Origin: Daejeonella sp.
GTDB lineage: Bacteria > Bacteroidota > Bacteroidia > Sphingobacteriales > Sphingobacteriaceae
Reading direction: 5' to 3'
Assembly: GCF_030684675.1 (NCBI RefSeq)
Contig: NZ_JAUXXZ010000046.1
Location: 1-60,953, forward strand
DNA length: 60,953 nt
Positions 8,515-10,862 of this stretch are shown piece after piece; the stretch's first letter is position 1, and the number at the start of each line of letters is the position of its first letter. A program made the position numbers and the translations under genes. The notes beneath the pieces are model-generated. The model was not told the origin of the DNA. It saw only the letters and a program-made list of their open reading frames with translations, and searched no databases.

Positions 8515-9771
8515 TTAAGCCAGATTGAAGGCTTTTTTAACCTGATCAATATAATCTAGTTTTTCCCAGGTAAACAGCTCAACTTCTACAGTTTTACTAT
8601 CTCCGTTATTTCCTAAGAACGTTTTAGTTACCACCTCATTTTGGCGGCCCATATGACCATAAGCTGCGGTTTCAGAATATATTGGATTACGAAGCTTTAA
8701 GCGGGTTTCGATTCCGTATGGAGTCATGTCAAAAATAGAAGATATTTTTTGTGCAATCTCACCATCATTAAGTCCAACTTTGGCAGTTCCGTACGTATCA
8801 ACAAAAATTCCCATTGGATCTTTAACACCAATTGCATAAGATACCTGTACCAGAATTTCACTACAAACTCCTGCGGCAACCAGGTTTTTAGCAATATGAC
8901 GGGTTGCATAGGCTGCTGAACGATCCACTTTTGAAGGATCTTTTCCTGAGAATGCACCACCCCCATGTGCACCCTTACCACCATAGGTATCTACAATGAT
9001 CTTACGACCTGTTAATCCGGTGTCTCCATGAGGTCCGCCTATCACGAATTTTCCTGTAGGATTGATGTGGTATTTGATCGCATCAGTGAAAAGCACCTGA
9101 AGCTCTGGTTTAAGTTGTGCTTTTATTCTTGGAATTAAGATAGAGATGATATCCTCCTGAATCTTTTTCTGCATGTTTACTTCTGTGTCGAAGTCATCAT
9201 GCTGAGTAGATACCACGATCGCATCGATACGAATTGGTCTGTGGTCATCACTATATTCTATAGTTACCTGTGATTTCGCATCCGGGCGAAGATATTTAAT
9301 TGCAGAATTCTCTCTGCGCAGTACAGCAAGTTCTGTTAATATCTTGTGCGCAAGATCTAATGCCAATGGCATATAGTTATCGGTTTCGCCTGTAGCATAA
9401 CCAAACATCATTCCCTGGTCACCTGCACCCTGGTCTTGTTTTTTAACTCTGTCTACTCCTTGATTGATATCAGCGGATTGCTCATGAATTGCAGAGATAA
9501 CACCACATGAATCAGCCTCGAACATATATTCAGATTTGGTGTAGCCAATTTTACGAACCACTTCACGGGCAATTCTTTGCACATCAAGGTAAGTTTGTGA
9601 CTTAACCTCTCCGGCTAATACAACAAGACCTGTTGTAACCAGGGTTTCGCAGGCAACCTTTGAATCAGGATCCCAGGCTAAGAAGTTATCGATTAATGCA
9701 TCTGATATCTGATCAGCCACTTTATCCGGGTGACCTTCTGATACTGATTCGGAGGTAAATAAATAAGGCAT
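8515..9771 (-). CDS. metK: S-adenosylmethionine synthetase (methionine adenosyltransferase)
   Basis: A 418-residue cytoplasmic enzyme making S-adenosylmethionine from methionine and ATP. The N-terminal [12 protein letters not shown] with catalytic H15, the [13 protein letters not shown] signature, and the [19 protein letters not shown] loop with phosphate-binding residues are all present; length matches the bacterial/Bacteroidota form. The start at 9771 is supported by the family N-terminus. It is monocistronic: a strong terminator follows, and upstream lies a leader of about 145 bases with a SAM-II-like riboswitch, which would allow feedback by its own product. No purine-rich ribosome-binding site is visible before the ATG. 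Confidence 0.97.
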
Positions 9772-9836
9772 AGAGTTTTAATTAATATTTAAAAATAAGA
9801 GATTTCGTAAAATGCAGAAAGCAGATGGAGTGTTTT

Positions 9837-9907
9837 GATCGATGTAAAAACCGGCAGAATGTTTTAGCACTTTTTTTTACGTGGTTGCAATCAACGCAAA
9901 TCGATCC
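9837..9907 (-). promoter_or_regulatory. Possible expression platform: strand competing with the SAM-II-like aptamer
   Basis: A contiguous 14-base segment downstream of the aptamer (minus strand, 9850 to 9837, TTTTTACATCGATC) is complementary to two aptamer pieces: GTAAAAA at 9880-9874 and GATCGAT at 9906-9900. Forming both helices leaves only a small TTGC/GCAA hairpin between them, but it would break P1 and the L3 strand of the pseudoknot. It is therefore a plausible ligand-free fold. No terminator and no ribosome-binding site is obvious, so how the switch would act is unknown. ATCGAT is self-complementary and the other segment is A/T-rich, so chance pairing is possible. Confidence 0.4.
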
Positions 9908-9910
9908 ACT
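9861..9910 (-). ncRNA. SAM-II-like riboswitch aptamer in the metK leader
   Basis: Reading the minus strand, GTGG (9909-9906) pairs with CCAC (9884-9881) as P1. The L1 loop contains GATTTG and then ATTGCA, next comes an A-rich GTAAAA stretch, and the 3' part is GTGCTAAAA. TTGC of L1 (9889-9887 region) can pair with GC-U-AA (9868-9864) with the U bulged, as in the SAM-II pseudoknot. This order of conserved blocks (GATTTG, TTGCA, GCTAAA) matches what I know of the SAM-II class from alphaproteobacterial metA leaders. A TAnnTTTG box 12 bases upstream would start the RNA right at the aptamer. It lies before the gene that makes the ligand. Identified by eye; no covariance search was run. Confidence 0.78.
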
Positions 9911-9921
9911 TTTTTGCAAGG

Positions 9922-9929
9922 CAAAAGTA
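9922..9929 (-). promoter_or_regulatory. Candidate metK promoter -7 box (TACTTTTG)
   Basis: TACTTTTG on the minus strand fits TAnnTTTG. It would start transcription about at 9914-9917, a few bases before the SAM-II-like aptamer begins at 9910, which supports both assignments. A T-rich stretch upstream could serve as the -33 element. Confidence 0.6.
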
Positions 9930-9961
9930 GGATAAATATTATGTTCTAAAAAATTTAAGAG

Positions 9962-9969
9962 TATTTTTG
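9962..9969 (+). promoter_or_regulatory. Candidate promoter -7 box (TATTTTTG) for the lipid kinase gene
   Basis: TATTTTTG fits TAnnTTTG and lies 20 bases before the TTG start at 9990. It is divergent from the metK promoter, with only about 32 bases between the two -7 boxes. Because transcription would begin near 9975, an upstream start codon is unlikely, which supports the TTG start. Confidence 0.5.
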
Positions 9970-9989
9970 GAGTTAAAATCTAAATTTAG

Positions 9990-10862
9990 TTGAAAAGAAA
10001 AATTTTATTCGTTATCAATCCGATTTCAGGTGGGAAAGCCAAATATAATTTTCCGAAAAAGATTGATAAATATCTGGATAAGAGCAAATTTGACTATGAA
10101 TGTGTCTTTACAGATTATCATGGTCATGGATCTCTTCTGGCAGTTGAAGCGATCAGAAATGGTGTAGATATTCTGGTTGCAGTGGGAGGTGATGGCACCA
10201 TAAATGAGGTAGCAACAGAAGTTGAGGGAACTGATAAGTTAATGGGAATCATACCATTTGGATCAGGGAACGGACTGGCCAGATCTTTGGGGATTCCAAT
10301 AGCGGAGGTTCAGGCTATCAAAAGAATAAATAATCTTCATGTTAGTACAATCGATTCAGGCACTTTTAATGGCAGGAAGTTCTTTAATATGGCTGGTATC
10401 GGATTTGATGCACAGATCAGTTCACGTTTTGCTGAAAATGTTAAACGCGGTCTCAGTAGCTACATTAAAATAGCATTCTCAGAAGTTTCTAATTATCGTT
10501 CTCAGCATTATCGTTTGACCATAGATGGAAAAGAATATGAGCATCAGGCATTTATGATTAGCGTTGCTAACTCGTCGCAGTATGGGAACAACGCGCATAT
10601 TTCTCCTTTCGCCTCCCTGAATGATGGCATGCTGGATATTTGTATCCTAAAACCATTCCCGCTTTATAAGTTTCCTGCATTGGTGCTTAGAATGTTCAGA
10701 AAGAATACTCATAAATCAAATTATTTGGAGATAATTCAGGGCAGTAATATCACTATTAAGAGAGAGAGTGATGCGGCTGTTCATCTGGATGGAGATCCCT
10801 TTAATATGGGGACAATACTGAGTATAGGAGTTAACCCACATTCTTTAAATATTCTTAATTAA
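9990..10862 (+). CDS. Diacylglycerol kinase-family lipid kinase (YegS/BmrU type)
   Basis: A 290-residue cytoplasmic lipid kinase. VINPISGG near residues 9-15, GGDGT at 66-70 (the nucleotide-binding motif of the family) and FGSGNG at 90-95 define the DAGK catalytic domain. The C-terminal beta domain ends with AVHLDGDP. The family phosphorylates diacylglycerol, phosphatidylglycerol or sphingoid lipids; the substrate cannot be told here, though Sphingobacteriales make sphingolipids. The start is a TTG at 9990: the family begins just here (KRKILFVINP), there is no in-frame ATG nearby, and a promoter box lies 20 bases upstream. The SUI1 gene follows after 2 bases. Confidence 0.85.
   Translation: MKRKILFVINPISGGKAKYNFPKKIDKYLDKSKFDYECVFTDYHGHGSLLAVEAIRNGVDILVAVGGDGTINEVATEVEGTDKLMGIIPFGSGNGLARSLGIPIAEVQAIKRINNLHVSTIDSGTFNGRKFFNMAGIGFDAQISSRFAENVKRGLSSYIKIAFSEVSNYRSQHYRLTIDGKEYEHQAFMISVANSSQYGNNAHISPFASLNDGMLDICILKPFPLYKFPALVLRMFRKNTHKSNYLEIIQGSNITIKRESDAAVHLDGDPFNMGTILSIGVNPHSLNILN

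Follow-up and report, generated by a model that had tools for sequence, protein, structure and literature searches.

The question raised by this locus is how a SAM-II-like aptamer could control metK from some distance, in a leader that offers no obvious ribosome-binding site. The window, by which we mean the whole stretch of 60,953 nucleotides of Daejeonella sp. DNA that was analysed, carries on its minus strand the aptamer and, as the next gene after it, metK (8515..9771), which encodes an S-adenosylmethionine synthetase of 418 aa. An initial annotation made from the letters alone had proposed that a strand downstream of the aptamer competes with it for pairing, and this core idea proves right. 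We consider it likely that the leader acts as a SAM-II riboswitch, repressing metK at high SAM via a strand-exchange expression platform.

Results

The metK leader carries an ordinary SAM-II aptamer

A covariance-model search (cmscan) matched RF01726 (SAM-II, long loop) at 9915-9854 on the minus strand, scoring 58.2 bits (cut-off 44; E value 1.3e-8). The alignment covers the full model (positions 1-60 of 60), and RF01726 was the sole Rfam family above the gathering score across the window. All of the sequence blocks from which the initial annotation had recognized the SAM-II class are exact, namely the P1 stem, with its 5' strand GTGG (9906..9909) and 3' strand CCAC (9881..9884), the GATTTG block (9902-9897), the TTGCA block (9890-9886) of GATTGCA, and GCTAAA (9863..9868), the 3' strand of pseudoknot P2; both P1 strands and GCTAAA are also assigned by the RF01726 alignment. 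The folding tools used here model no pseudoknots, and P2 is read in this leader from its sequence blocks, as a putative pseudoknot. The window aptamer is thus a real and ordinary member of SAM-II, and we infer that it binds SAM. On the same strand, TACTTTTG (9922..9929) resembles a -7 promoter element as in Bacteroidota, which we read by a TAnnTTTG-type consensus, and most leaders of the genus have a TAnnTTTG-like element at the equivalent place. The metK ATG at 9771 is 91 bases downstream of GCTAAA, in agreement with the earlier estimate of about 90, and inspection of the leader revealed no Shine-Dalgarno-like sequence before it.

Identical SAM-II blocks are present in 17 of the 19 leaders from the genus, while L118 and L119 have the blocks with an insert. 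This insert is hairpin-like, lies between GATTTGCGTTG and GATTGC, and corresponds to the long-loop form; the relatives alongside are without it. RF01726 was found in the window's own genome (1/1), in 19/20 genomes of the genus, in 238 of the 251 genomes sampled from the GTDB family, 188 of them above the cut-off, and in 63/395 genomes sampled over the phylum (57 above cut-off), where the family and phylum surveys used stricter filters that lose weak matches. Each matched genome listed has one match, and the aptamer is followed by metK in 106 of the 108 loci fetched via RF01726, so that an aptamer on metK is typical for the GTDB family of the window. The assumption that SAM-II is mainly alphaproteobacterial, on which the initial annotation had relied, is dated, as reports of the class date from 2005 for the Bacteroides group (PMC1273637) and from 2007 for Bacteroidetes (PMC2258182), and an entry "SAM-II long loops, Bacteroidetes, marine" was listed in 2010 (PMC2864571).

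We also collected 80 named Bacteroidota metK loci (L032-L111; protein 71-83% identical), of which 39 were parsed as SAM-II and 40 were not, the remaining one being without its start. At least three of the 40 unparsed leaders (L060, L065 and L085) are SAM-II by eye and were missed by the text pattern, which also missed L174 and L177, both of them Rfam matches. Since about half of the named loci have no SAM-II by this pattern (40/80, with at least three misses), the switch has been gained or lost within the phylum.

A downstream strand complementary to the aptamer is conserved in the genus

The 14 contiguous downstream bases that had been described as complementary to two aptamer segments are exactly so: TTTTTACATCGATC, at 9850-9837 on the minus strand, can pair without a mismatch with GTAAAAA (9880-9874) and GATCGAT (9906-9900). 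The window alone is a weak case for a competing strand. A contiguous 14-base strand that splits into two exact helices of at least six pairs was reached in 18/4000 shuffles of the downstream leader, in a test framed after the feature was seen, and within the window the aptamer-downstream duplex energy was matched or beaten in 31/100 shuffles and the folding energy in 217/1000. Further downstream, TTTTACG (9812-9806, minus strand) is likewise exactly complementary to CGTAAAA (9881-9875) and may rival the first arm.

Relatives provide the stronger evidence, and in them the two arms of the strand fared differently. The putative first arm, UUUUUAC (9844..9850, minus strand), would pair with GUAAAAA (9874..9880), the A-rich linker of the aptamer, and this helix is exact in 17/19 genus leaders. 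In L112 it keeps six pairs, and L006 has AUAAA with UUUAU, a compensatory change that retains the first-arm pairing. The second helix of the initial annotation, between AUCGAUC (9843-9837) and GATCGAT, is not enriched in the genus, with a mean score of 12.05 over the 19 leaders versus 11.87 in shuffles, and it is complete only in the window (L001) and its nearest sister, L113. When the same downstream stretch is instead paired with UUGAUUG (9888..9894), the 5' strand of the P2 region, the genus mean rises to 14.84 versus 11.34 in shuffles, and L006, L023 and L031 individually reach 5% or better. The arm responsible would be CGAUCAA (9835..9841, minus strand), which overlaps AUCGAUC and pairs with UUGAUUG through one G-U, as judged from the genus pairing score and the folds. 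In predicted ensembles, 15/19 genus leaders have the UUGAUUG region paired with downstream bases by at least three pairs. Column-wise pair counts on alignment A1 were left out, since the leaders differ in spacing and L006 is out of register.

These comparisons bear on whether the working alternative state is the exact three-way junction in which GATCGAT is the second partner. The window itself favors the junction, since its seven pairs are exact, it is the predicted minimum-energy fold at all five lengths, and the GATCGAT helix scores better there than the UUGAUUG helix (p 0.06 vs 0.13); the same fold is also predicted for L028 and L030. On the other hand, a slightly different 100-base piece of the window folds into a long rod with UUGAUUG paired, and L115 breaks the GATCGAT helix and completes the UUGAUUG pairing. 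By these predictions the two partners would be nearly equal in the window, while the genus as a whole suggests that GATCGAT is probably wrong and that UUGAUUG is more consistently complementary. We therefore regard the junction as an unlikely candidate for the working state and, of the two targets of the competing strand, UUGAUUG as the better conserved.

Proposed invading arms match the aptamer in many Bacteroidota leaders

The wider comparison started from 188 loci, of which 145 were parsed and 123 were kept after removal of similar downstream regions. With the A-tract excluded, helices of at least eight pairs between the aptamer core and the downstream region occurred in 28/123 leaders versus 3.3-3.5 expected. 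Controls at the same threshold gave 0 for the reverse-complemented core (1.2 expected), 2 for the reversed core (2.2) and 6 for promoter sequence (7.2), and at seven or more pairs the promoter control was slightly high (30 vs 22.8). When one leader per genus was kept, such eight-pair helices were found in 5/21 leaders within family f1 (0.5 expected) and in 11/30 outside it (0.9 expected), a thinning that reduces but does not fully remove the effect of shared ancestry on the permutations and sequence counts. We call family f1 Sphingobacteriaceae-like by inference from the named relatives L036, L042 and L063. Exclusion of the A-tract was chosen after the result that included it had been seen: with the A-tract, the longest helix had a mean of 7.10 versus 6.55 in shuffles and only 12/123 leaders reached 5%, which is hardly above shuffles because A/U runs pair by chance. 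The complementarity is also not universal, as 44/123 leaders are without a core helix of even six pairs, and Bacteroidales-type leaders (L099 and L110, and by aptamer form L166, L169, L182 and L186) had no helix excess.

Leaders match their own aptamer better than those of others. Comparing own with swapped partners gave z values of -4.3 (70 leaders), -6.1 (53 leaders) and -7.4 (all 123), with 0/5000 permutations each; in this test L036, L042 and L063 were placed in the "other" group. GCAATC, which is complementary to the invariant GATTGC, is present in 27/123 leaders versus 2.3 expected by six-mer count and is the most enriched six-mer apart from those of the aptamer's own GCAG tail. Other arms follow the variant that the aptamer carries: CTTTAG is found in 15/46 leaders with CTAAAG and 0/77 without, TCAAATC in 7/44 leaders with GATTTGA and 0/79 without, and TTTTAC in 26/57 leaders with GTAAAA and 6/66 without. 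The pairing of TTTTAG with CTAAAA is weak (6/68 vs 3/55), GTTAAA aptamers have TTTAAC in only 2/14 leaders, and for GCTTGC aptamers we found the partner GCAAGC in 0/13. Two of the helices covary: the base after GCTAAA with the base before TTTAG (21/24 vs 13.0 permuted, 0/5000), and the base two positions ahead of the A-run with that two positions past the U-run (37/60 vs 28.5 permuted, 12/5000). Downstream TCCAC (12/81 vs 4.6) and TCCTC (8/40 vs 3.4) are enriched as possible competitors of P1, and their allele matching to P1 was not significant (Fisher 0.058 and 0.29, respectively).

By eye, L060 and L065 have GTCAAATC with GATTTGAC, and L085 has TTTTAGC with GCTAAAA. A Flavobacteriia-like group with GATTTGAC (L061, L073, L080, L083 and L187, and also L060 and L065) carries GTCAAATC downstream, an arm directed at the other block conserved in the aptamer.

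Together, comparison of the leaders gives a strand-exchange platform good support in the window's family and other Bacteroidota, with the exception of the few Bacteroidales-type leaders in the set.

Ligand binding and strand invasion are proposed to exclude each other

In folding predictions for the 123 leaders, the downstream strand was unpaired at 0.386 when the aptamer strand was available and at 0.637 when it was not. This drop of 0.251, versus 0.099 in shuffles, was the larger of the two in 112/123 leaders, and when only the downstream part was shuffled, 61/123 leaders folded more stably than 95/100 shuffles. Given the computed aptamer, the complementarity, and its conservation and covariation, we propose the following order of events. 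The aptamer would be transcribed first. With SAM bound, the pseudoknot would hold GAUUGC, the A-rich linker and GCUAAA, leaving 40-60 downstream bases single-stranded. Without SAM, the downstream strand would invade, UUUUUAC pairing with GUAAAAA and CGAUCAA with UUGAUUG (or, as a variant in the window, AUCGAUC with GAUCGAU), and this invasion would destroy the pseudoknot and hide the downstream strand. Since both arms take strands needed by the pseudoknot, what is known of SAM-II structure implies that the ligand-bound and alternative states should be mutually exclusive. For metK, the expected effect of SAM is repression, and the OFF signal should then be the strand that SAM exposes.

How the exposed strand may be read out

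One reading is a translational switch, in which SAM binding would let the freed strand, or the aptamer itself, cover the region around the metK start. SAM-II on metX and SAM-V are described as acting in this way, and the SAM-II of Sinorhizobium meliloti metA affects translation 74 nucleotides away (PMC9373788). We found no ribosome site inside or adjoining the window's aptamer, given the distance to the ATG and the missing Shine-Dalgarno sequence, and the ATG is 47-203 bases from the aptamer in the 145 parsed leaders. Predicted openness of the start region was 0.568 versus 0.562 with or without the aptamer strand and was lower in 61/123 leaders, in a model that does not include factors like ribosomal protein S1. 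We therefore rejected start-site masking by the freed strand, and consider a translational switch improbable overall.

Alternatively, there may be no strand exchange, the downstream motifs being kept for some other reason, such as a protein site, with the pairing as a by-product. Consistent with this, the flanks of GCAATC do not covary with those of GATTGC (8 vs 6.2 permuted), which also led us to reject an extension of that pairing into the flanks, and TCTGCW, another motif downstream, is enriched although the aptamer has no complement to it (18/123 leaders vs 4.6 expected). However, the arm used differs by lineage and each time is the complement of the aptamer segment carried, two helices covary, and GCAATC occurs in just 1/40 metK leaders unparsed as SAM-II and 1/106 other upstream regions of the window's genome. 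A by-product of this kind is thus quite unlikely, and strand exchange remains our preferred explanation. In the window, TCTGCA/T is found in a T-rich context at 9826-9815 (minus strand), and the motif is present in 17/69 family leaders.

Many SAM-II leaders of alphaproteobacteria use intrinsic termination, in which SAM binding permits a terminator hairpin to form. This is a common SAM-II platform elsewhere (PMC1273637, PMC2258182), and a U-rich tract (T 0.49) lies 10-20 bases beyond the aptamer. Intrinsic termination is nevertheless very unlikely here, as we found 0 terminator-like sites in 9700-10000 and terminators in 3/123 leaders versus 5.0 in shuffles, counts that unusual terminators would escape.

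The strand that SAM would expose is C-rich and G-poor: in the window, the leader segment at 9806..9855 (minus strand) has C 0.28 and G 0.14, which makes it a candidate Rho loading region. Downstream C minus G was 0.141 in the 123 leaders, with short segments padded with A (0.142 unpadded), versus 0.013 in 106 regions that precede other genes of this genome, and the window's own value is at the 90th percentile of this background. Aptamer-less metK leaders gave 0.044 (36 leaders, after L060, L065, L085 and L093 were removed by hand, the last three before the leaders were seen) or 0.046 with all 40 unparsed leaders, and the position-matched skew was smaller (0.106 in 36 leaders). The avoidance of G may only keep the downstream strand unfolded. 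The window's genome encodes Rho, and Rho has been described as essential in B. thetaiotaomicron (PMC13269538).

Since neither an intrinsic terminator nor start masking was found, the strand is C-rich and G-poor, and Rho is encoded, Rho-dependent termination is the best remaining guess. Rho would load on the exposed C-rich, G-poor strand and transcription would end before metK, a proposal by composition and elimination that we hold with somewhat less than even confidence. The control mechanism would thus differ from the classical ones, as the initial annotation had also suggested. More tentative still, and on balance doubtful, is the general model in which Sphingobacteriaceae-like and Flavobacteriia-like SAM-II leaders have a platform of their own, whose lineage-specific invading arms would be complements of GAUUGC, GAUUUGAC, GUAAAAA or GCUAAAG and whose SAM-exposed strand loads Rho and stops metK.

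Discussion

SAM-II is a textbook aptamer, and the conserved competing strand described here is a concrete, mutable element that would make riboswitch read-out in a major phylum directly testable. In the literature searched, which did not extend to supplements and most subscription papers, we found no account of this platform in Bacteroidota SAM-II, nor of how a Bacteroidota SAM-II is read out on a gene without a Shine-Dalgarno sequence and terminator.

The closest known relative is the long-loop SAM-II family RF01726 (PMC2864571), which the window matches in sequence and secondary structure over the whole model, and on metK. The model ends near GCUAAA, whereas the downstream competing strand lies outside it. 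With alphaproteobacterial SAM-II (RF00521; PMC1273637), the leader shares P1, the pseudoknot blocks, a methionine/SAM gene and a putative promoter just before P1. The SAM-II of S. meliloti metA/metZ is similar in that its aptamer acts although the start codon used lies some way off, but it has a Shine-Dalgarno sequence in the riboswitch as well as terminators (PMC9373788), neither of which was seen in the metK leader. Our favored model resembles Rho-dependent riboswitches (Hollands 2012; Bastet 2017), where a ligand controls the exposure of an unstructured C-rich leader, although those belong to another aptamer class and another phylum. Altogether, the aptamer of the metK leader is a known one, and its expression platform looks new.
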